39,616 bases of DNA from a virus. The notes under the pieces are model-generated. The model searched no databases, was not told where the DNA came from, and worked only from the letters and a program-made list of their open reading frames with translations. Positions 9,669 to 39,616 of this stretch are shown here, piece after piece; within the stretch, counting starts at the first letter, position 1, and each line of letters opens with the position of its first letter. The stretch is taken from IMG/VR virus record IMGVR_UViG_3300030406_002406, positions 1-39,616 of that record; one strand, 5' to 3'. Both the position numbers and the translations under genes were made by a program.

Positions 9669-10123
9669 TGTTAAATTTAATTGGCTCATTGTTACCAGTC
9701 GGAGAAAAGTTAATTGATAAACTTATCCCTGACCCAGAAGCAAAACAAAAAGCTCTCAAAGAGTTAAAGCAAATGGAACAAACTGGCGAGCTTGCTCGTC
9801 TGTCTGCCGAGCATGCAAATACTGCGAGTGCCAGAGAGCGAGAGATCAAAGTTGCAACCTCAGAGTTTGCACCTTTCATTAACAAGATCATTGTACCGTG
9901 TTTAGCAATATTGATTGTTCTTCTTACGTTTGGAATGATGACAGCAATTTTGTTTTTAGATATTACCGAAGGTAAGAGCTATGAGATTGCCCTGTATATA
10001 CTGGGTTTGCTTTCGGGAGCATTGATGTCATGTATTAATTATTACTTCGGCAGTTCTACTGGTTCAAAAGAAAAGAGTAAGGAACTACAGGAGATCATGG
10101 AAAAAAAGGAACCCAAGGTATGA
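9668..10123 (+). CDS. Holin (3TM family)
   Basis: Holins make lethal holes in the inner membrane and release the endolysin. This 151-residue protein shows an N-terminal hydrophobic region (about 1-20), the 'IPDPEAKQKALKELKQ' helix, then two clear membrane helices: IIVPCLAILIVLLTFGMMTAILFL (about 74-97) and IALYILGLLSGALMSCINYYF (about 106-127). The order, including the PDPxAKxKALxEL stretch, is that of the 3TM holin family. The C-terminus is charged. The gene overlaps the preceding stop and the endolysin start (ATGA), forming a lysis operon. Confidence 0.8.
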   Translation: MLNLIGSLLPVGEKLIDKLIPDPEAKQKALKELKQMEQTGELARLSAEHANTASAREREIKVATSEFAPFINKIIVPCLAILIVLLTFGMMTAILFLDITEGKSYEIALYILGLLSGALMSCINYYFGSSTGSKEKSKELQEIMEKKEPKV

Positions 10124-10515
10124 GTAACGTAGCATGGGAAGACTCAAAGTTTTTTATGAAGACTGAGTTTGATTGTTCGCATACTGGCGACAACGAAATG
10201 AAGCAAGTCTTCATAGACAATCTAAATGTTTTGCGAGAAAACTATGGAAAAGCAATGTTGATTAGTTCAGGCTATCGAAGTCCTGAGCATCCGATAGAAG
10301 CTCGTAAAAAGAACGGTGGTGGAATGCATACAACAGGTTTAGCATGTGACGTACTGGTAAGTGGGAAAGATGCTCATCACTTTTTAAAGTGTGTATTAGA
10401 TCATGGTTGTTGGACTGGTATTGGGGTCAGTCAGAAAGGAGATCGTTCTTCACGTTTTATTCATATTGACATGGGAACGAATACTTATACGAGACCGACA
10501 ATATGGAGTTACTAA
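10120..10515 (+). CDS. M15-family peptidase (endolysin)
   Basis: A 131-residue peptidase predicted to cut peptidoglycan crosslinks in the periplasm at the end of infection. The zinc ligands of M15 peptidases are visible: His70 and Asp77 in GGMHTTGLACDV and His115 in FIHIDM; the SSGYRSPEHP segment (about 49-58) is the usual start of the motif block. No signal peptide, so holin-dependent release fits. It overlaps the holin stop by 4 bases. The next gene begins at the TAATG of its stop. Confidence 0.88.
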   Translation: MSNVAWEDSKFFMKTEFDCSHTGDNEMKQVFIDNLNVLRENYGKAMLISSGYRSPEHPIEARKKNGGGMHTTGLACDVLVSGKDAHHFLKCVLDHGCWTGIGVSQKGDRSSRFIHIDMGTNTYTRPTIWSY

Positions 10516-15463: not shown

Positions 15464-16162
15464 ATGGCTTTGACACCGAATAATATTTTTACTAGAGTCG
15501 CTGATACTCTGCAAGACGTTGGTAATGTGCGTTGGACATCGACTGAGCTTTTGCGTTATTTGAATGATGGCAGAAGAGAGCTTGCACTTAACAAGCCTGA
15601 CATTTATTCAGAGCATTCATCAATTGCTTTAGTTGCTGGAACAAAACAATCGATACCTTCTGATGGCAATACATTTATTGATGCGATTAGAAATTATAGT
15701 TCATCAGATGTAGTTGGCAGAGTTGTAAGACTTGTAGAGCGTGAAGTTCTTGATGCACAAAATCCTGACTGGCATTCTACAACGGCAACAACTTCAATCA
15801 TTAATTTTATGTTTGATGAAAGAAGTCCTAAAACATTTTATGTATATCCACCAGCATCAGGCGGTGGACATAAACTAGAAATTTTATACTCTAAGTCTCC
15901 TGTAGATATTAGCTCATCAGACTTAGATTCTACTACTGCGTTGGCAAAAGAAGATTTACATACCAACACTTTATACGATTACATTCTGTACCGAGCATAT
16001 AGCAAAGATGCAGAATATACAGGCAATGCCCAAAGAGCAGTTACACACTTTAACCTGTTTGCTAGTTCTATTGGGATTGATAAACGAATGAAATATGTGA
16101 GTTCTCCAAATGTTGCGAATCAATCTGGAGTACCGCCCAAAGAAGCTGGAGCAGATGCGTAA
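15464..16162 (+). CDS. DUF6682-like phage adaptor protein
   Basis: This 232-residue protein starts MALTPNNIFTRVADTLQDVGNVRWTSTELLRYLNDG, which closely follows the pattern I remember for DUF6682 adaptor proteins (VRW... ELL.YLNDG.RE). These are thought to form a ring between portal and tail. A helical N-terminal domain is followed by a beta-rich middle and a helical C-terminal part (RAYSKDAEYTGNAQRAVTHFNLF). The gene comes right after the capsid, the usual place. It ends in a TAATG overlap with the next gene. Confidence 0.78.
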   Translation: MALTPNNIFTRVADTLQDVGNVRWTSTELLRYLNDGRRELALNKPDIYSEHSSIALVAGTKQSIPSDGNTFIDAIRNYSSSDVVGRVVRLVEREVLDAQNPDWHSTTATTSIINFMFDERSPKTFYVYPPASGGGHKLEILYSKSPVDISSSDLDSTTALAKEDLHTNTLYDYILYRAYSKDAEYTGNAQRAVTHFNLFASSIGIDKRMKYVSSPNVANQSGVPPKEAGADA

Positions 16163-29179: not shown

Positions 29180-29482
29180 ATGAGTTCAAATGAAAACTAT
29201 GAAATAGATGTTACGCAGTCAGAAGCAAATATGGTTAACGGAACTATGAAAGTTACCGTTAAAGTAAAACATGTTGAACCAGAAATAACTACTGTTTTAG
29301 GCGAATACGACATAATAATTAACAAACCGTATAGAACAATTAGTTCAGCAGTACATTGGGAAATTAGAAGAAAGTTACATCAAGCTGGTATATCTGACAT
29401 TACATTTAGTGCAGAACCACCAGAAGATTTTATTCCTGACGGAGAAGTGCCATTTGTAAATGCAACAATACACAACATATAA
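29180..29482 (+). CDS. Small beta-rich hypothetical protein, 100 aa
   Basis: An acidic protein of 100 residues with alternating strands (GTMKVTVKVKHVEPEITTVLGEYDIIINK), a helix near the middle and a terminal 'VPFVNATIHNI'. It lies 6 bases behind the preceding gene and ends in the TAATG that starts the acetyltransferase. No family recognised; possible tail or assembly role from context. Confidence 0.65.
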   Translation: MSSNENYEIDVTQSEANMVNGTMKVTVKVKHVEPEITTVLGEYDIIINKPYRTISSAVHWEIRRKLHQAGISDITFSAEPPEDFIPDGEVPFVNATIHNI

Positions 29483-29991
29483 TGAATAAGATTATTGTAG
29501 GAGAAAAAAGAATCTTAGAGTATGTTGCAAAAAAAACAGATGAAGATAATTTTAATGACAATTGTGCAACTATTGGATTAGTAGATGAGAACGATAATAT
29601 TCTTGCTGGTGTTGTTTACAACATGTGGAGCGGTCATTCGATCTGTATGCACATTGGTGCAGAAGAAGGCTCAAATTGGTTTAGCAGAAGGTTTGCTACA
29701 TTTTGTTTCAATGCAACCTTTCAATATTTTAATTGCAACCGAGCAACTGCGTTAGTTCGTAAAAGCAACGTCAAAGCACAAAAGTTTGTACTCAAACTTG
29801 GTTTTATAGAAGAAGGTATTGTTCGCCAAGCGTGTCACGATGGCGAAGATTTAGTTATGTTTGGAATGTTAGCAAAAGAGTGTAGATTTCTTAAACTCAA
29901 AGAGAAAGAAAATAAATGTGTAAAGTCTTACAAACTGGAGAACAATTATGATTTACGATTGGGACACCATGCTCCCAGAGAGAGCTTTTAA
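29482..29991 (+). CDS. GNAT-family acetyltransferase
   Basis: A 169-residue protein with the GNAT layout: an N-terminal helix, a strand 'NILAGVVYNMWSGHSICMHIGAE', the long helix block 'SRRFATFCFNATFQYFNC', then the acetyl-CoA-binding side 'RATALVRKSNVKAQKFVLKLGFIEEGIVRQACHDGEDLVMFGML'. The last part, N..a..f..klGF..EG..R, is the family's well-known C-terminal motif. Phage GNATs often sit in structural regions, and their substrate is usually unknown. It overlaps the following gene by 44 bases. Confidence 0.82.
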   Translation: MNKIIVGEKRILEYVAKKTDEDNFNDNCATIGLVDENDNILAGVVYNMWSGHSICMHIGAEEGSNWFSRRFATFCFNATFQYFNCNRATALVRKSNVKAQKFVLKLGFIEEGIVRQACHDGEDLVMFGMLAKECRFLKLKEKENKCVKSYKLENNYDLRLGHHAPRESF

Positions 29992-31102
29992 ACCTAGAGG
30001 TGGATTTGGTAACAGGGGCGGTATGACGTTAGAGGGCGGTGGCAAAGGTTCCAGACCTCCAGATTTTACTCCTTTAAAAGAAGCTATGCTTCAGGTAGGA
30101 GATGATATGAAAGCTCTGGGAATGGAGCAGTTACGATTCTCTAAACAAAGATATGCCGATACGTTACCTATGTTTGAAGCACAAGCTCAAGCTGATATGC
30201 GTAGTAGAGCAATAGTCGATTCTTTAGCAAAAGATTTGTTACAAGAAAAAGCAAAGTATTCAGCTCTAGAAGATCGTTTAATTTCTGATATAGCTAGAGA
30301 TGACGAAAGAATGGCTAGAGATTATTACGCTGGTCAAGCTACAGCAGATGTGCAACAAGCATTTGATTCGCAACGAAACATATCAAATAGAAACTTGCAG
30401 AGGTTTGGAATCAATCCAAACTCTGCTCGATTTGCTCAGTTAAACCAGAATTTTGCACTAGGAGCTTCTAAAGCAAACGTAGGAGCAAGAAACAGGGCTA
30501 GACGACAGTCTATGGCAGATAACTTTGCTAGGAAAGCTACGGTAGCTGGACTCGGTAGGAACATACCTAACCAAGCAACTGGTCTTATGTCCTCAGCATC
30601 AGGCTTAGGACGAAGCGGTACAGGTCAGCTTGGCATGGCAACAGGTCAGTTGATGGCTGGCTATGGTGGGGCTATGAGAGGGTTACAGGGACAAATGGGT
30701 GCTATAGGTGGAGCTGGCAACCTTATGGCTCAAGGATATCAAGCACAGGCTCAGTATGATGCAAATCAAATGGGTATGATGCAAGGGGTAGGACAGTTAG
30801 CTGGTCTTGGTGCTGGTCTATACTTTGGTAAACAAGGCGGTGTAATACCAGAACCACCACAAAGAGATCAAGGTGGTAAGTTATCTGGTGCTGGAACAGG
30901 AACCTCAGATTCAATTAAAGCGATAAATGTTGATACTGGAGATGCTATTGCCGTATCAAACAATGAAACTGTTATCACAGAAAAAGGCTCCAAGAAAATA
31001 GGGTATGACGTTTTGGCTGGAATTAATAAAGGTCAAATTAAACGTAGTGACATTAAGCCACAAGCGATAGCAAGGCTTAGTAATAACAAGAGAAAAGGTT
31101 AA
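29948..31102 (+). CDS. Putative internal virion (ejection) protein A
   Basis: It overlaps the end of the GNAT gene and has its own CTGGAGAACAA ribosome binding site. The 384-residue product is Gly-, Gln- and Ala-rich, with long helices in the middle (about 60-200) and small-residue-rich helices (GQLGMATGQLMAGYGGAMRG, about 225-275). A short Gly-rich part (SGAGTGTSDSIKAI) follows and then a C-terminal 'GDAIAVSNNETVITEKG'. Composition and position before two more long helical genes fit a capsid-internal protein that is ejected with DNA. Confidence 0.65.
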   Translation: MIYDWDTMLPERAFKPRGGFGNRGGMTLEGGGKGSRPPDFTPLKEAMLQVGDDMKALGMEQLRFSKQRYADTLPMFEAQAQADMRSRAIVDSLAKDLLQEKAKYSALEDRLISDIARDDERMARDYYAGQATADVQQAFDSQRNISNRNLQRFGINPNSARFAQLNQNFALGASKANVGARNRARRQSMADNFARKATVAGLGRNIPNQATGLMSSASGLGRSGTGQLGMATGQLMAGYGGAMRGLQGQMGAIGGAGNLMAQGYQAQAQYDANQMGMMQGVGQLAGLGAGLYFGKQGGVIPEPPQRDQGGKLSGAGTGTSDSIKAINVDTGDAIAVSNNETVITEKGSKKIGYDVLAGINKGQIKRSDIKPQAIARLSNNKRKG

Positions 31103-31104
31103 TT

Positions 31105-32469
31105 ATGGCTAGGGGTACAGGTTTAGCTGGCGGTATATTTCAGGGTATTTTAGCTTCTGAACAAATCAAGGACAAAGCTGAAGAGCGTAAAATGCGACAA
31201 GGTTTAGTCCTTAGTCAACTTGAGTCAGCGAAAGTTGACAGAGAAGTTAAGGGTTTACAAATGAAAGAGCTTAACTTAAAACTTGAAGAAGCAGAAAAAT
31301 TACGACAGGACAAAATTAATTTTGAAAACTTAGTTAAAGATACTATGTTTGAAATGGTAGATGTTCAAGAAATGGCTCCTAATGGTGGGTTTAGAACTGT
31401 TCAAAAACCTAAACTTAAAAGTTATGAAGGTAGTGGTGGTCATAGAATGTATTTACAAGATATAAGTAAAATCGCACAAGCAAGTTTGTTAAGAGGAGAT
31501 ATAAAACCTCAAGATATAAATTTGTTTACTAAAAATATTATGGATATCGCAAACCAAGTAGGTCAAGAAAAGTTTAAAGATATCATACTTAATCCTAATA
31601 AACCTGAAAATATAGAAGCTATTGTTAGTCAATTAGGAATTCAAGGAGAAGTCTCATCGGCTTCGTTTGGTTACAAACAAGGGACTCCAATATTTACTAT
31701 TTCTATGGTGGGTCAAAAAGACCCAATCAGATATGATGCTAGTAATTTTTTAATTCAAGCTGGTCTTGTAGATGGGATTTCTAAACTGGTTGGAATGCAA
31801 GAAAAAGTCGCAAACATAGGAAAGATTAAAGCAGAGACTACAACTGAAGAGAAACTTTCTGCCAGCATTGACGGCTTTGGAAATTATACAAGACCAAAAA
31901 ATGTTCAAAAAGCAGACAAGCAAGACAATAACTTTAGAAGCAAACATTTTGATTATTTTGACCCAAATAAAAACGCTGGTAGAGTTGACAAGGAAATTAA
32001 AAATCAAGTAAATCAATGGCTAGGTTTAGCTGTTGGTGCAACACCACCAAGAACTAGAGAAACTTCTGCAATGTATAGAGATTTGCAAACTAGTGTAACT
32101 AATTGGTTGCGAACCACAACGGATAGCATTTATCAAAACACCGTAAACGATTTCCGAGGAGGAAGTCCTATTGCTAGTTCAGCTAATATTTCAAGAAGGA
32201 ATTACAATCCTAGTGTTACTGAAACTGCTAGTACAGCAAAGAAAATGTTAAAACTTGACTGGCGAAAAGATAAGGACAGTAAGAAGGTTTACCCTACCAC
32301 AGCAAGTGTTCTTAATGCTGGTTTTGAAAGAGTTCGGAGTGAAGAAGATGGTTCGTTTTTTTTCATTGATAAAACAAATGGACTAGTAATACCACAGAAT
32401 AGTTGGTTTGAAGCTGGAAGATTATGGAATAAGTCTTCTCAGCTAAGTCAAATAATTAGGGTAGAATAA
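31105..32469 (+). CDS. Putative internal virion (ejection) protein B
   Basis: A 454-residue protein with a Gly/Ala-rich start (MARGTGLAGGIFQGIL), a long charged coiled coil (about 20-80: KAEERKMRQGLVLSQLESAKVDREV...), and a mixed second half. AAAGG lies just before the ATG, and its stop overlaps the next start (TAATG). The coiled coil and the position next to the giant protein suggest they assemble together inside the capsid. No enzymatic motif. Confidence 0.65.
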   Translation: MARGTGLAGGIFQGILASEQIKDKAEERKMRQGLVLSQLESAKVDREVKGLQMKELNLKLEEAEKLRQDKINFENLVKDTMFEMVDVQEMAPNGGFRTVQKPKLKSYEGSGGHRMYLQDISKIAQASLLRGDIKPQDINLFTKNIMDIANQVGQEKFKDIILNPNKPENIEAIVSQLGIQGEVSSASFGYKQGTPIFTISMVGQKDPIRYDASNFLIQAGLVDGISKLVGMQEKVANIGKIKAETTTEEKLSASIDGFGNYTRPKNVQKADKQDNNFRSKHFDYFDPNKNAGRVDKEIKNQVNQWLGLAVGATPPRTRETSAMYRDLQTSVTNWLRTTTDSIYQNTVNDFRGGSPIASSANISRRNYNPSVTETASTAKKMLKLDWRKDKDSKKVYPTTASVLNAGFERVRSEEDGSFFFIDKTNGLVIPQNSWFEAGRLWNKSSQLSQIIRVE

Positions 32470-35400
32470 TGGCTGATTTGTATCAAGATAAAGAAGAAGC
32501 TAGAGAAAAAGTTAATGATAGATTAAGAAACATAAATACTATTAGGGATAGACGTAACTCTACTATTGATAGGTTGCAAGCCGTTGAACAATTAAATAGG
32601 CAATCTATATCAACAGGCTCTAATGTTCCTCAGAAAAAATATCAAAAAGTAGATGAAAGTGAGTCATGGGGAATAGAAATTTCTCCAACTAAGTCACAGG
32701 AAGAACCTATTCTTCCTGATACGCAAGAAGACCAACAAACAATTACAGCAACACAGCCAGAACAAACGACTTCAATAACCGATGATATTGGTTTTGGTGT
32801 GCCATTATCAGATGATGAAGTTGATGGATTTAGCACTTCTACTCAATCATATCCTGATCTCGGAATAGATGTAAAAGAAAAACCAGATAGCATATTAGAT
32901 ATGATTCTTGACCCAAATTATGCTGATGCACTTATAGAAGGTGGTAAGCAATCCTTTAGTCGTGCTGGTTCAACATTTGATGTATTAACTGGAGACAATC
33001 TTGAAGTAGAACAAGATGCCAAACAAAGTGCTTTATTGTCAAAGAACTCTCTTTTAGTTAATAAAAAGAGATTCTTAAAAAAAGCAAAACAAAACTATGA
33101 TGAAGCAGAAGGATTCTTCAATACTCTTTATGGATTGTCAGATGCAATGTATCAAGAGAAAGCTGGTGTTGTAGAGCTTGTTGCTGAACAAGCTCCTAAT
33201 ACAGTAGGAACATTAGCTTCTGGGTATCTTGGTGGAAAAGGTGGCTTAGCTATTGGAACTGCTCTTGCTCCGTTTACTTACGGTGCTTCGATTCCAGTAT
33301 TTACAACTGCTGGTTTTATTGCTGGTATGTTTGGCTTTAATATGTTTCAAGAGGTAGGTGCTAAAGCACAAGAAAAAGGCTTAGATGGTTTTACAGAAGC
33401 AGAAAGAAAAGAGTCTTTAAAAGAAGGAGCAACAAAAGCTGGAGTTATTACTGCTGTTGATGTAGTAACATTTGGTGCTACAAAAGCATTTATGAACACA
33501 GCTAATCGAGCTATAGAGAGAGCAACCATTGATACATTAAATAAAAACAATGTTGATGTAGCTGGTTTTACAAGAGATTTAGCAACCTTTAAGAAACAAG
33601 TTGATTTAACAAAAACTTCTACACCATTACGAAGAGATGCTTTTATTACTGGTGCAAACAGAATTGCACAAAATTATGGGTTAGGAGAAAAGGCTGTTAG
33701 AGACTCTGTTACTTTGGCTCATAAAAAAGTAAAGAGTTCTTTGGATTACATAGCTAAAAAAGCTATGACTCCTCCTGTGGCTTTAACTTTAGAAACTGCT
33801 GGAGAAGGTTTTGGAGAATACTTAGGAGAGTTAGTAGCAACTGGAGAAGCAGATGCATTCGATGCAATCATCGAAGCAATTGCTGGTGGTACACAATCTG
33901 TTGCTCAGGTTATGGCTGGTGGAGTTAATAATCTTTACGGTCAAGCGGTAGGTAGAAGAGAACAAATTGGGCAACAAGTTACAGAAGATGTAGATTTAAT
34001 TGATGCAACAATTAGGTCTGATGAAGCTAGACAAGCAGATGAAAAACAAGCAAAAGATGAAAAAATACAATCTAAAGTTAGAGAAAAAACTGAGATAGCA
34101 CAAAGAAATGTAGTTTCTTTGTTTGAAGACAAAGATAACGCAGTTAATTCTTTATATGCTATGCATAAAAAAAGTGCTTCTGGCGATTCAAATACAGATA
34201 AATTAAGAGTAGACACTATAGCAAGAATTGCACAAGACTTAGGGTATGAAGATGATTTTCAAGAACTTGTAGGCAAGAAAGGCAAGAAAAAAGCTGATGC
34301 TCTTGTTACAAGAAGAGAAGAAGCTTCAGAAAACTTAAGTCAATCTCCTAGACTTAGAAGAAATCTTGAAGATTTTATTGATGCTCAATCAGAAGCATAC
34401 GCAAAAGGCGAATCCTTAAATTTGCGTAGGACTCTTGCGAAGCAAACGAAAGATGAAAAAGGTCAAGAACTTTCAGAACGAGAACGTGCAAACATACAAG
34501 CACAACAAGAAGCAAAAGAAGCAAAAGGTTTAATTGATTTAAAAATTAATAAGAGAACCATTGCTACTGGCGATGCTAAAAAAGCAGAACAAGATATCTT
34601 GGGTTTAGATGATGTAAGACCAAAAGAAGGAGAAAATTTAAGAGGTTCCGTAAAACCAGAAACAGATTCTGTAAATGTATTTTATGGAGCAAATGAAAAC
34701 AAAGAATTAAGTAATCTTGCTCAAAGACCTTTTAAATTTAAAGATCGTTCTGGAAGAACCAGAACGTATCAATCTGTAGAACATGCTTATCAAACTCTTA
34801 AGTTTGATTATCTATTAGATAAAAAAGGATATAAAAATCCTGCTGGAGTTATTAGAGATCAAGATAGAATATATAAATTAGACTGGAAAGAAGGTTCTGT
34901 ATTTCGCAACGAAGTAAAAAGAGTTCCAATAGATACGCAAGATACTCCTAAGTCTCCAGACTTTAATGAAAAAAAGATATCTGCAACACCTCAGAGCGAT
35001 TTACAAATACATCAACAGTTTGGTGGCGGTACTGTAGCAGAGTTTAATGAACAAGCTTTATCATTAATGAAAAAACTTGTTAGAGCTAGTGCCTTTGCAA
35101 CAGCAGATAGAAGACTTATTGAAGATGAAAAAGGAGATAAGTTTGTAGCTCCAGAAGAATTAAGCGAAAGTGCTAGAGCATTCCAAAGAGCTTTAATGAA
35201 GACTGGAAATAAAAAAATTACCCACCTTCAGGGAGGTAAGTTTTGGAATAAAGCATTTCCAGAAGCTTTAGAAGAATTAAGAGATTCTTTAAAAGCATCT
35301 GTATCAAACCAAAAGTTAAAAAACAAAGTTAAACTTACTAAACGTAACAACGTATCACAGAGCATAAACGCTAAAGATCAGGCAAAAGCTGATCTTGCTG

Positions 35401-38400
35401 ATAAGTTTATTGGTCAGGGTGGAGAAGGAACTTCTACTGATTTATACCAAAAAGACTTTGATAGATATGGACTAGCAAATATGGGTACATATTCTGCTAC
35501 TGATAAAGTTTTTGTTTCTGCTAATGGTAATGCACCAAACAGATTAAACCCAGACTTCGAGGAAATTAACAAGGCAGTTAGAGCTGGAGCCACATTTATA
35601 ACTGACAGCAGAAACTATGTAAATAAAAGTAAATATAACAAAGGCGAAAGGCAGATATCTAGTTATCTGATTAGCCAAGGTTATCAGTACAATGATTTAC
35701 AAACAGCAGATGGAATTACAGTAGGTCAATACACACCTAAGACAGAAAGTCTTAGGGGTTACTTCAATTCTATTTCTAGAGAGTATATTCAGTTAAGTGT
35801 TGCTCCAAAGGATTTTAATTATCATTATGGTCAAGAAGTAAAAGACAAACTTGGTTTGCGTTTTCCTTCTGGTTTAGTAGACAAGTTTTTTGAAAACATA
35901 GAAACAGTTTATAAAAATGCTTACGATGAATACTATGGCTATGATGCACAAACTAAAAAATATAAAAATAATCCTGAAGAGTTTAAAAATTTATTAATTA
36001 AAAATCCAAACCCAAATAAAATACGAGAGTATTTTATTAAAAAAGGGTTAATGCCAAATTTAAGGTTAAAAAACTTTTCAGAAATATCTTTAGATTTTGA
36101 AAGATTTTATGGTCAAACTTTTAAAGAAGCTGGAGTAAAAGTTAAATTATTTGTAAAAGGTAAAGTAGAGTTTAGAACTCCTAGCAATCTTAAAGAATTT
36201 AATCTTGCTGTTGAGCAAGGTGCTTTTCAAAAAGCTGGTAAATTTATTAAAAATAAAGAAGGTGTTTTTGTAGATTATCATCCTAGATTTATGAAATATG
36301 GGAAAGACAAAGACGGTAATAGAATTGTTTTAGACAAAGGAGAAAGAAGACAAGTATTTCTTGGTAGAAAAAGAGATGATGATTCTGTAGAGTTTGGTCA
36401 GTTTACTAAACAAGTTTCTCAAGATGACAAAGATGAATTTGTTATGACTAAAGTAAGACAAATCATCGGAGCTGTTGATGTTCAAAATGACAGAGACAAT
36501 CCACCTTATATAATTGACTATGTTTTAGCTAACGATTACTACATCAACAAACCAATGGTTGTTGGAGTAGGAATGAATACAAAAAAAGTTGACCCTATTG
36601 GCTCTCATTCCAACCCATTAAATTTATCTTTTAAACAAAGACAAAAAATTTATGATGCATATACTAAAAAAAATGCGACTGTCATTGACATGTTACAAGA
36701 AGAGTTAAAAGCAAAAGATGTAAGTGAAGAAAAAAAGGTAGAAATAGGAAAAGAGCTTAAACGTGAAACATTATTAAGAAGAACGAAAAAGCCCAAGGGA
36801 GCAAGAGGGGTTGGTACTTATGAAATTAGAGATATAAGTTTTCAACCCTCTATGAGAATAGCTTTTGAAAAAGCTAAAGAGTTTCACGGGTCGGGAATAA
36901 CTAGGTTAAGTAGTTTATTAAACCAGAGTTTTGATTATGCTCTAAACAATACTCCTTTGTTTAGATATATTGTAAGAAATAAATTATTAAAATTAGTTGC
37001 AGATAGTCAAAAACCATACTTTGGTGCAATAGATGAATATGTTCCATCTAATGTAAATGGTGGATTTAGAAACGATTCATTTACTTTATCACAAGAGGAA
37101 TATGATCTTGGTGTAGAAGATTTAAGAAAGAATTACAAAATATATCAACAAGGTGGTTTTGTTGATGAGTCAGATAAACAAGAAATCAAAGAAAGAAAAG
37201 CTAAAAAGTCTGTAATGATTGCTGGCTCACAGATGCAATATGGAGAATTTGCAAGGGCTTTTGACAGACTAAGTAAAGATCAAGAAGCAAGAGATCGATT
37301 TAATGAAATGTTTGAAAACATAAAAGAAAAATATTTTGTTACAGAGGTTGATGGTAAACATTTTGTTTCTTTTAAAATCGAAAGCAAGGATGCTCGTAAA
37401 AAACAAGAAAAAATGTTGGAAGGAATATTTGGTTATTATGAGCCACATTTAAATCATTACGCTGATTTTTTTAAAGATGTAAAAAAGATTTTAAATGACC
37501 CAGATGTGTTTGCTAGATATAATCAGTCCAAAGCACAAGCTAAGGAAGCAAACGAATATTTAGAAGAATTAGAAGGAATTTTAAGGAATTGGGATGAAAA
37601 TGAACTTACAGATAGAATCGGTATTAAAAAAGATCAAGCAATTTATGACGAAGTTATTATCGAAAAGCTCAAAAAGAATAAAGCAAGTTATGACCAACTT
37701 TACGAAAAAGTAACAAAATATATAAGATTAGATGATACAGATAATAAAGTTCGTGAAGAGTTAGACAGAGACACAGAAGGAAGAGATAAAGAACAACGCC
37801 CTACTGAGGGAGATCGGGATAAACTTAGATATGCTAAAGCTAATTTAGAAAAGTTTTTATCAGAAACTAGAGATGCAAGCAGAACAACTCCTCTATTAGA
37901 CTTATATTTTAAAGATTCGATTATTAAATCTAAACTAGAAGTTTTGTTAAATAATTATTTAGACCAAGCTGAAGGTTACAGTACAGCTCAACAAGATCAA
38001 GAAGTATTAAGAAGATATGTACAAGGTATATATATAGATTTAAATAAAACAAAGAAAATAGCTGAAGAGGAAATGGGTGATCTCTTGAGAAGAGAAGTCT
38101 ACCAAGAAGACACGAATACCTCTGCTAGAATTTTAGAATATTATAAAGATCAAATACCAGCTCAAGAAACTCCTGAACAGACCAAAGCTTTAAAAGAGAA
38201 GCTTGAAGGAGAAATCACTACCAAAATAAAAGTTATTAGAGATGGCATTGACAAAGATAGGCGATTAGAACAGAAATTTATTAATGATGGTATTGACCCG
38301 ACAAAACAATTTAATATTGATTTGTCGTATCACACTAAAATTAAAAACGAAATTAGATCATTAAACAAAAATCAACAAGAAGAACTATTTTTAAAATTAG

Positions 38401-39616
38401 CTGATGAATACAAAGCTGGTAGGATGACCAGCATGGCTGAATTAGATGCATTGTATAATGCAGTAGGGATGTCTACTCCTATTACATGGAAAACTCTTAT
38501 GTCATATCCGATAATGACAATATCATTGTCGGACTTTGTAGCTAAAAGGGGTACAGGTTATCAAGCAAAAGCAGAATACTTTAGTTCATTCCTGTTGTTT
38601 CAAAAAAGATTACTTGAATTAAAACCCAACAGCGAAGACTTTATAACTAAAATAGAAAATAAGTATTTATCTCTAATAGAACGTGCAGAGTTTAACGATT
38701 GGTTAGAAACAGAACTATTGTATTTAGCTAGAAAACATGTTGACCCTACCACTCTTTTAGAAAAATCAGTAAAAAAGAAAACAAAACAGCAGATGTTGTT
38801 AGAAAGAAATACAACAAAAAAACCAGTTTCTTTATATTCATATATAGTAAAAGATGCTGAAAAAATAACTGCTGACCCAAGCGTTCTAGATAAGTTTTTA
38901 TTCTCTAGATTTTCGTTAACAGATTTAAGAGGGTTCCGTTATCTTGATGAAAAAGATCAATACTTCTTATCTAACTATATAGCAAAACCAATAATTAGAA
39001 CTACAACAGCAGATCAGTTACATAAAGCTAAGCAAAGAAATGTTAAGCAACTCTTATTGCTTAAGGAAGATACATCTACATTTTCAGAAAGACAAAAAGA
39101 ACAGATTGAATTTAAGATAAGTAAAGCTACTCAACAATTTCGTAATGAAGTAGCGAAATATACTAATATATTTAAACCTAGTAGACCGATTAAAGATTCT
39201 GAATATATACAATGGTTTGACATGATGATGAAGAATCATGGCAAAACTATTGAAAGGCAACTTTCCGCACTTGAAAAAAAATCAAATACTATAGAAGAAC
39301 TTAACGCTGTTAACAGTCAATATCAGTTTTTATTTACCAGTCCTTCTGAGATTACATCATTTAAAAGGTCAATAGATAATTACAAAAAATTAGAAAACGA
39401 ATACATTAAAAAAATAACAAATTTACAAAATGTAGCTCGTGTCCCAATAATAGAAAACGATGTTGTAGATCAGTTAGTAAAAGCTTGGCATTCAGACTTG
39501 TATTATGCTAGGAAAAGATATAAAGGTTTTAACGATAAGTTTAAAGAATTAGTTAGTGTAAGAGATCAGCAAGAGTATATTGAATGGATTCGTGACATAC
39601 GAGGTAGGTATGTTAA
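32469..39616 (+). CDS. Giant internal virion protein with NADAR-like domain, cut at window end
   Basis: The frame is open from the ATG at 32469 to the last base: at least 2382 codons with no stop, and the end is outside the window. Layout: charged start (1-110), helical part, a hydrophobic Gly/Ala-rich segment (about 245-298) and a second (about 433-490), as in ejection proteins that enter the cell envelope. Then comes a NADAR-like domain (about 735-945; Phe738-Tyr739-Gly740, Ser-Val-Glu771-His772, closing THLQGGKFWNKAF with Trp926), a second small alpha/beta module (about 990-1095), and a very long, mainly helical charged remainder. The NADAR call is by motif order and has not been searched. 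Confidence 0.85.
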   Translation, partial: MADLYQDKEEAREKVNDRLRNINTIRDRRNSTIDRLQAVEQLNRQSISTGSNVPQKKYQKVDESESWGIEISPTKSQEEPILPDTQEDQQTITATQPEQTTSITDDIGFGVPLSDDEVDGFSTSTQSYPDLGIDVKEKPDSILDMILDPNYADALIEGGKQSFSRAGSTFDVLTGDNLEVEQDAKQSALLSKNSLLVNKKRFLKKAKQNYDEAEGFFNTLYGLSDAMYQEKAGVVELVAEQAPNTVGTLASGYLGGKGGLAIGTALAPFTYGASIPVFTTAGFIAGMFGFNMFQEVGAKAQEKGLDGFTEAERKESLKEGATKAGVITAVDVVTFGATKAFMNTANRAIERATIDTLNKNNVDVAGFTRDLATFKKQVDLTKTSTPLRRDAFITGANRIAQNYGLGEKAVRDSVTLAHKKVKSSLDYIAKKAMTPPVALTLETAGEGFGEYLGELVATGEADAFDAIIEAIAGGTQSVAQVMAGGVNNLYGQAVGRREQIGQQVTEDVDLIDATIRSDEARQADEKQAKDEKIQSKVREKTEIAQRNVVSLFEDKDNAVNSLYAMHKKSASGDSNTDKLRVDTIARIAQDLGYEDDFQELVGKKGKKKADALVTRREEASENLSQSPRLRRNLEDFIDAQSEAYAKGESLNLRRTLAKQTKDEKGQELSERERANIQAQQEAKEAKGLIDLKINKRTIATGDAKKAEQDILGLDDVRPKEGENLRGSVKPETDSVNVFYGANENKELSNLAQRPFKFKDRSGRTRTYQSVEHAYQTLKFDYLLDKKGYKNPAGVIRDQDRIYKLDWKEGSVFRNEVKRVPIDTQDTPKSPDFNEKKISATPQSDLQIHQQFGGGTVAEFNEQALSLMKKLVRASAFATADRRLIEDEKGDKFVAPEELSESARAFQRALMKTGNKKITHLQGGKFWNKAFPEALEELRDSLKASVSNQKLKNKVKLTKRNNVSQSINAKDQAKADLADKFIGQGGEGTSTDLYQKDFDRYGLANMGTYSATDKVFVSANGNAPNRLNPDFEEINKAVRAGATFITDSRNYVNKSKYNKGERQISSYLISQGYQYNDLQTADGITVGQYTPKTESLRGYFNSISREYIQLSVAPKDFNYHYGQEVKDKLGLRFPSGLVDKFFENIETVYKNAYDEYYGYDAQTKKYKNNPEEFKNLLIKNPNPNKIREYFIKKGLMPNLRLKNFSEISLDFERFYGQTFKEAGVKVKLFVKGKVEFRTPSNLKEFNLAVEQGAFQKAGKFIKNKEGVFVDYHPRFMKYGKDKDGNRIVLDKGERRQVFLGRKRDDDSVEFGQFTKQVSQDDKDEFVMTKVRQIIGAVDVQNDRDNPPYIIDYVLANDYYINKPMVVGVGMNTKKVDPIGSHSNPLNLSFKQRQKIYDAYTKKNATVIDMLQEELKAKDVSEEKKVEIGKELKRETLLRRTKKPKGARGVGTYEIRDISFQPSMRIAFEKAKEFHGSGITRLSSLLNQSFDYALNNTPLFRYIVRNKLLKLVADSQKPYFGAIDEYVPSNVNGGFRNDSFTLSQEEYDLGVEDLRKNYKIYQQGGFVDESDKQEIKERKAKKSVMIAGSQMQYGEFARAFDRLSKDQEARDRFNEMFENIKEKYFVTEVDGKHFVSFKIESKDARKKQEKMLEGIFGYYEPHLNHYADFFKDVKKILNDPDVFARYNQSKAQAKEANEYLEELEGILRNWDENELTDRIGIKKDQAIYDEVIIEKLKKNKASYDQLYEKVTKYIRLDDTDNKVREELDRDTEGRDKEQRPTEGDRDKLRYAKANLEKFLSETRDASRTTPLLDLYFKDSIIKSKLEVLLNNYLDQAEGYSTAQQDQEVLRRYVQGIYIDLNKTKKIAEEEMGDLLRREVYQEDTNTSARILEYYKDQIPAQETPEQTKALKEKLEGEITTKIKVIRDGIDKDRRLEQKFINDGIDPTKQFNIDLSYHTKIKNEIRSLNKNQQEELFLKLADEYKAGRMTSMAELDALYNAVGMSTPITWKTLMSYPIMTISLSDFVAKRGTGYQAKAEYFSSFLLFQKRLLELKPNSEDFITKIENKYLSLIERAEFNDWLETELLYLARKHVDPTTLLEKSVKKKTKQQMLLERNTTKKPVSLYSYIVKDAEKITADPSVLDKFLFSRFSLTDLRGFRYLDEKDQYFLSNYIAKPIIRTTTADQLHKAKQRNVKQLLLLKEDTSTFSERQKEQIEFKISKATQQFRNEVAKYTNIFKPSRPIKDSEYIQWFDMMMKNHGKTIERQLSALEKKSNTIEELNAVNSQYQFLFTSPSEITSFKRSIDNYKKLENEYIKKITNLQNVARVPIIENDVVDQLVKAWHSDLYYARKRYKGFNDKFKELVSVRDQQEYIEWIRDIRGRYV
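34671..35300 (+). other. NADAR-like domain within the giant protein
   Basis: Residues about 735-945. The start (VNVFYGANENKELSNLAQRPF), then YQSVEHAYQTLKF, and the end (LMKTGNKKITHLQGGKFWNKAF then ALEELRDSL) follow the order seen in NADAR proteins such as E. coli YbiA. In that family the Glu in SxEHxxQ is in the active site. The middle part is longer than in compact members. Known NADAR enzymes cleave ADP-ribose from guanine and related N-glycosides. This subdomain is listed because it suggests a defined chemistry for an otherwise unknown giant protein. Confidence 0.68.
35436..35757 (+). other. Second small alpha/beta module next to the NADAR-like domain
   Basis: Residues about 990-1096: FDRYGLANMGTYSATDKVFVSANGN, then helix FEEINKAVRAGATFITDS and later 'YNKGERQISSYLISQGYQYND'. 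The strand-glycine-loop-helix-strand order is Rossmann-like and reminds me of nucleotide- or ADP-ribose-sensing SLOG-type domains, though I cannot confirm the family. Its position directly behind the NADAR-like part makes a shared nucleotide substrate plausible. Confidence 0.42.

Follow-up and report, generated by a model that had tools for sequence, protein, structure and literature searches.

This locus raises the question of whether the giant open reading frame that closes a 39.6-kb IMG/VR virus fragment encodes an enzyme that reaches the host cell together with the phage genome. Bacterial antiviral weapons include DNA and RNA ADP-ribosylation, and T4 Alt and P1 DarB are injected anti-defence enzymes. 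The original prediction for this DNA (referred to as the window, 39,616 nucleotides in its entirety) placed a NADAR-like, ADP-ribose-removing domain inside a giant internal virion protein, which prompted a closer analysis of the domain, its carrier and its relatives.

The giant ORF and its phage context

The giant ORF is both the last gene of the fragment and the final gene of the structural module. The predicted length of more than 2380 residues was correct, as the frame comprises 2382 codons and is still open at the contig end; the product (2382+ aa) is a very large multi-domain protein containing the NADAR and a second conserved region, termed domain B. The gene set was that of a short-tailed phage, and the portal protein had its closest counterparts in Rhizobium phage RHph_TM3_14A and in HMO-2011-like podoviruses. 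The module closes with the following genes:

29482-29991, plus strand: GNAT-type acetyltransferase gene (weak Pfam GNAT match, E 0.13), used as a syntenic marker
29948-31102, plus strand: 384-aa virion protein (phrog_8003 virion structural protein, E 9e-33)
31105-32469, plus strand: 454-aa protein directly upstream of the giant, a probable second ejection protein by position only
32469-39614, plus strand: giant ORF, 2382 codons, stop-free, 3'-open at the contig end; an internal virion protein that is probably ejected

The tblastn match of the 384-aa protein fell on BcepIL02 gp66 and JC1 gp64, and a search for relatives of the 454-aa protein found none. The closest IMG/VR relative identified via the 384-aa protein (L008, 66%) is represented by a record that stops before the giant gene, and no parts of that gene were found elsewhere in the same record. 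The GNAT-type gene overlaps the gene for the 384-aa virion protein (29482-31102), and this pairing is kept in Bcep22-like phages, Skulduggery and the Rhizobium phage. A peptidase M15-type endolysin gene (10120-10515; Pfam E 8.5e-10) is conserved in phages of the window family (L138, L072 and L074).

A NADAR domain within the giant protein

34668-35315, plus strand: NADAR domain, residues 734-949 of the giant (profile, model match and alignment)

The domain was present at the place first proposed (34671-35300, residues 735-945), for which 34668-35315 is the better delimitation, and the motifs FYG..LSNLAQRPF, SVEHAYQ, TGNKKITH, FWNKAF and LRDSL were located where they had been reported. Scanning of the full-length giant with Pfam, PHROG and NCBIfam missed the NADAR in all three cases. 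The excised region matched phrog_1017 (E 4e-5) and Pfam NADAR PF08719 (E 5e-4), the latter match covering the N-terminal 49 residues only and, at 20.8 bits, falling below the Pfam cut-off of 35.1 bits. Among named phages, tblastn pointed to giant proteins from crAss-like phages, one being annotated as DUF1768, and the aligned NADARs of these crAss-like giants, when used to scan IMG/VR, returned 27 loci. Several NADARs passed the Pfam cut-off unaided (L028, E 1e-13; L010, 2e-12; L026, 1e-12; L030, 9e-11). A relatives' profile, built from 21 of the 27 loci with the window left out, scored the window giant at 81.1 bits, a value that is not fully independent, because confirmation of the loci relied on tblastn with the window domain, and that is nevertheless anchored, because some members pass Pfam by themselves. 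With the same profile, 200 shuffles of the giant gave at most 6.8 bits and the other window frames 3.6 bits. A sensitive profile search, one of the checks proposed for the domain, hence recovered it with the profile of its relatives, the Pfam NADAR model itself remaining weak.

The second proposed check, comparison of a predicted structure with YbiA, required an alignment-based model, as the single-sequence AlphaFold2 model was useless (pLDDT 40). The model built with the relatives' alignment had a mean pLDDT of 72.7, with core blocks at 83-94. It matched the ADP-ribose-bound NADAR 8bau (Z 10.9, 134 residues) and YbiA 2b3w (Z 9.5, 127 residues), the next, unrelated match having a Z of 4.2; with Foldseek alone, 8bau was the top match and a weak one (E 0.14). 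The NADAR identity and the position of Glu771 were borne out by the profile, the fold and the invariant catalytic residues, and the assignment of residues 734-949 to a NADAR domain is confirmed at the level of profile and model.

The predicted active site

NADAR enzymes use a catalytic Glu, a Lys and a third residue, which is Glu, Asp or, in phage NADARs, His (PMC11543638). The corresponding codons in the window are:

34779-34781, plus strand: Glu771 codon, predicted catalytic; aligns with YbiA E48 and P. nicotianae E43 (PMC11543638)
34800-34802, plus strand: Lys778 codon, predicted catalytic, at Glu+7; aligns with YbiA K55 and P. nicotianae K50 (PMC11543638)
35223-35225, plus strand: His919 codon, third catalytic position; aligns with YbiA E125, with His as in gp30.3-type phage NADARs

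Glu771 lies in SVEHAYQ, with Lys778 seven residues on, and His919 lies in TGNKKITH; all three residues were present without exception in the 64 distinct embedded relatives. Trp926, in FWNKAF, was also retained. The pyrophosphate contacts R79 and W89 of 8bau aligned with Gln and Phe, respectively, in an uncertain alignment and a low-confidence stretch of the model, so the window NADAR may bind the ADP-ribose part differently. These contacts are not a defining feature of the superfamily, and the W89 position was also lost in most of the nearest relatives of the window NADAR. The window copy was the most divergent of the embedded NADARs (branch length 2.9), and within one group of closely related giants (L130-L142) the NADAR gave a dN/dS near 0.1. 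The long branch, the weak Pfam score and the altered R79 and W89 positions would fit a degenerate, non-catalytic fold retained for structure or ligand binding, an alternative that we regard as highly improbable given that the active-site Glu, Lys and His are all present and invariant in relatives, and Trp926 is present too.

Evidence for a probably ejected carrier

The order of a GNAT gene, a virion protein of the 384-aa type and a giant at the module end was the same in the window, BcepIL02, Skulduggery and RHph_TM3_14A, an acyltransferase being annotated at the place of the GNAT gene in the three named phages. The window giant occupies the place of BcepIL02 gp70, JC1 gp69 and SKUL_28. Mass spectrometry of purified virions of the Bcep22-like phage JC1 detected the giant gp69 (4515 aa) with 51 unique peptides, and gp64, the homologue of the window's 384-aa protein, was likewise found in purified virions (PMC9144972). 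A comparison of the window giant with BcepIL02 gp70 and SKUL_28 found no sequence similarity; since the proteins are dissimilar apart from shared domains, the relationship to gp70-type giants is one of positional equivalence and not of proven homology. Outside the NADAR and domain B, the window giant was without similarity to the other giants tested. The gene order of the window was repeated in L043, where the gene at the giant position has domain B without a NADAR.

The N4 virion RNA polymerase (vRNAP) is ejected into the host cell (PMC12633501), and fusion of vRNAPs to large proteins without known function has been noted for crAss-like and N4-related phages (PMC10770324). The synteny with the virion-located JC1 gp69 and the occurrence of related NADARs in N4- and crAss-type vRNAPs are the reasons why we consider the window giant to be probably ejected with the phage DNA. 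The ejection role first proposed for the protein is well supported in this way, through its relatives.

Comparison with known systems

The window copy shares with the NADAR superfamily (PF08719; YbiA, DarT1-linked NADAR and gp30.3) the fold, the active-site Glu and Lys and, at the third position, the phage-type His. It differs in being internal to a virion-type protein of 2382+ residues instead of forming a small stand-alone enzyme, and in the apparent loss of two pyrophosphate contacts, as read from an uncertain alignment. The ORF list at the locus contained no DarT1 or separate toxin gene beside the NADAR, which is internal to the giant ORF; judged by this arrangement, the window NADAR is not a member of a DarT1-NADAR toxin-antitoxin pair. 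The DarB-like proteins (BcepIL02 gp70 and JC1 gp69) and P1 DarB resemble the window giant in size, in closing the virion module downstream of GNAT and virion protein genes, and in a proposed role in guarding entering DNA. However, no sequence similarity was detectable, and the window giant has the NADAR and domain B instead; the dyad of an EcoKI/TaqI-type methylase and an SF2 helicase was absent from the giant and its pieces in Pfam searches of the sequenced part. Polyvalent proteins are likewise giant, multi-domain and thought to be injected with DNA (PMC5512222); no match to their LPD domains was found in the window giant, and NADAR is not mentioned in the 2017 survey (PMC5512222). In many relatives, the N4-like (Schitoviridae) and crAss-like vRNAPs have a NADAR of the same clade added to them, but a polymerase domain was not detected in the sequenced part of the window giant when it was searched with Pfam as a whole and in pieces. 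The virion-packaged NADARs proposed in 2022 would share early delivery in infection with the present case; that study describes phage NADARs as typically stand-alone and does not name crAss phages (PMC9503650).

To call the locus a new type of system was too strong, as anti-defence enzymes that are injected, such as P1 DarB and the polyvalent proteins (PMC5512222), and phage NADARs packaged in virions (PMC9503650) had been described or suggested before. The new point is the embedding of a NADAR in ejected giants and its recurrence, which appears to be undescribed: no prior report of a NADAR within vRNAPs or giants at the DarB place was found among open-licence papers, a search in which absence is not proof.

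Proposed function

The best overall explanation, to which we assign roughly an even chance, is that an ejected phage-type NADAR payload removes ADP-ribose from bases of the entering genome or the first transcripts, counteracting defence. A NADAR with the Glu/Lys/His site would be built as payload into a giant that is packed in the head of a short-tailed phage and ejected into the cell together with the DNA. Once inside, and ahead of any phage gene expression, it would hydrolyse the N-glycosidic bond between ADP-ribose and a base, most likely guanine, in the entering genome or the first transcripts, and DarT1-like or other ADP-ribosylating defences would be undone. Domain B, together with the AlkB-like or SLOG domains of related giants, would represent companion payloads directed at base or nucleotide modifications. 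ADP-ribose removal from incoming DNA, as originally suggested, is plausible, and a NADAR that is injected may wipe away a mark set by host defence as soon as infection begins.

The substrate of the NADARs that have been characterised is guanine-ADPr (PMC11543638, PMC11125620), and a phage NADAR of the gp30.3 type hydrolyses guanine-ADPr on DNA in vitro without rescuing cells from DarT1 (PMC11125620). The missing rescue in vivo and the view that soluble molecules are the main targets (PMC9503650) count against the explanation, as do the divergence of the window copy (below the Pfam cut-off, R79 and W89 apparently changed), the stand-alone close relatives described below (27 of 79 loci), the dissimilarity of the giant elsewhere to other giants and the end of the contig within the gene. 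The widespread phage NADARs are active in vitro and did not relieve DarT1 toxicity in vivo; if the NADAR arrives with the genome, tied to the ejection apparatus or the virion polymerase, tests with free overexpressed NADAR would miss the proper setting.

Embedded relatives

Fusion to virion RNA polymerases was found in several relatives. The L020 giant (4043 aa) combines a NADAR, an AlkB-like oxygenase and the N4 virion RNA polymerase (E 1e-36), and a NADAR accompanied by the N4 RNAP was present in five more giants (L069, L071, L076, L083 and L085). In L029 the NADAR was joined by a match to the crAss-like virion RNA polymerase 6vr4 (E 1e-20), and the polymerase catalytic motif DFD[IV]D was located within the NADAR ORF in 22 of the 27 loci. 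Such fusions in N4-like and crAss-like giants would also fit a repair or housekeeping function that is coupled to the vRNAP's early transcription and serves no counter-defence, its substrates being damaged nucleotides, NAD-capped RNA or ADP-ribosylated RNA ends. This alternative could further draw on an ASCH domain match in one NADAR giant, L010, and on a stand-alone domain B beside ribonucleotide reductase genes in Vibrio phages; we nevertheless consider it unlikely, as an RNA polymerase domain was not detected in the sequenced part of the window giant and the patchy distribution is like that of conflict genes.

Embedding also extended to relatives of the window phage. L072, L074, L109, L131 and L134-L142 are phages that carry NADAR giants and share structural genes with the window phage, having its genes at 15464, 16162, 17895 or 10120, and L090, with an embedded NADAR, has the window genes 22830 and 25739 in common; on this gene content, the embedded NADARs include members of the window's own podovirus family. 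All 27 loci of the first set were embedded, which had suggested a rule for the clade; this sampling effect was overturned by a wider scan, in which 203 loci were confirmed and 80 of them kept, yielding 79 NADAR ORFs. In the wider set, 27 of the 79 ORFs did not exceed a stand-alone domain in length (131-168 aa, one of them open-ended), two were short and open-ended (324 and 399 aa) and 50 had at least 676 aa. Embedding in giants is common and not universal, about a third of the wider set being stand-alone. More distant phage NADARs were stand-alone (171, 147 and 162 aa) with Glu, not His, at the third position, and the embedded clade was separated from them and from YbiA in the tree (100/99). 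T4 gp30.3 was too divergent to be placed, resolution being lost once it was added.

As embedded NADARs recur across N4-like, crAss-like and Bcep22/HMO-2011-like phages, the proposal can be put directly to the test in cultivable phages, and the recurrence offers a way into those regions of giant ejected proteins that lack an explanation.

An N-terminal lytic transglycosylase (SLT), a NADAR and an N4 RNAP helical domain occur together in a 4667-aa giant (L015:347-14347). In three crAss-like phages (L022, cr131_1; L023, cr272_1; L034, cr130_1) the NADAR giants could be read through only if TAG was translated as Gln; with table 11, stops break up the NADAR, and annotation tools can miss the domain.

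Domain B and other companion domains

35358-35762, plus strand: domain B, residues 964-1098 of the giant, adjoining the NADAR; conserved

Domain B follows the pattern FIGxG..SST..Y....ANxGxY...D.vFVS..G.R...AGAT..TD...YN.GE, with 17 invariant columns among 17 sequences, and matched the L017 giant with an E of 9e-18. A scan returned 21 loci, 20 of them within ORFs of more than 1200 aa. Profile searches of Pfam, PHROG and PDB gave no match for the family; the guess that it is a SLOG domain was supported by none of them, and domain B was therefore left unnamed. It lies at residues 3199-3340 of the L017 giant and 1773-1886 of the L044 giant; in L044 the NADAR precedes domain B, as in the window, and in L017 the order is AlkB, domain B, NADAR.

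Among roughly 40 NADAR records, there were 7 in which an AlkB-like 2OG-Fe(II) oxygenase shared the ORF with the NADAR (L017, L019, L020, L089, L100, L109 and L116; residues 1210-1351 of the L020 giant, about 3008-3169 of L017 and 1328-1486 of L109), and it was a separate gene in L138 and L139. Some of the AlkB-carrying giants also hold a virion RNA polymerase. AlkB being a base-repair fold, its presence tips the balance toward NADAR action on nucleic-acid bases. The L028 giant is of the crAss-like RNA polymerase type, and its terminal part (residues 2594-3084) holds the NADAR and, behind it, cpYpsA SLOG and DUF7831; this cpYpsA companion speaks for nucleotide signals as the target.

The ejected NADAR could alternatively break down small ADP-ribose-derived signals (cyclic ADPR variants, ADPR-phosphates) of TIR or related systems instead of acting on nucleic acids. 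We know of no NADAR that cleaves cADPR. Soluble ADPr derivatives have been argued to be the main targets of phage Macro, NADAR and SLOG domains (PMC9503650); on the other side, AlkB-like base-repair domains share the polypeptide in seven giants, and guanine-ADPr is the substrate on which NADAR activity has been characterised. The gp30.3 data (PMC11125620) and the argument of PMC9503650 led us to keep the action on bases at about an even chance and to rate the soluble signals as rather unlikely.

A broader, tentative proposal, which we hold at somewhat less than even, is that an exchangeable cassette for cleaning bases (His-type NADAR, domain B, AlkB-like, SLOG) may be common to several unrelated short-tailed lineages, placed in the proteins that enter first, often the vRNAP, and defence marks on the entering DNA or first transcripts would be erased while the genome enters and is read. 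If so, domain B would be a new domain processing nucleotide or base modifications.

Domain B also matched small stand-alone proteins of Vibrio phages. In SUMAE and Kuja, the stand-alone domain B genes (L002:2926-3330 and L003:2926-3336) are located just before the ribonucleotide reductase genes.
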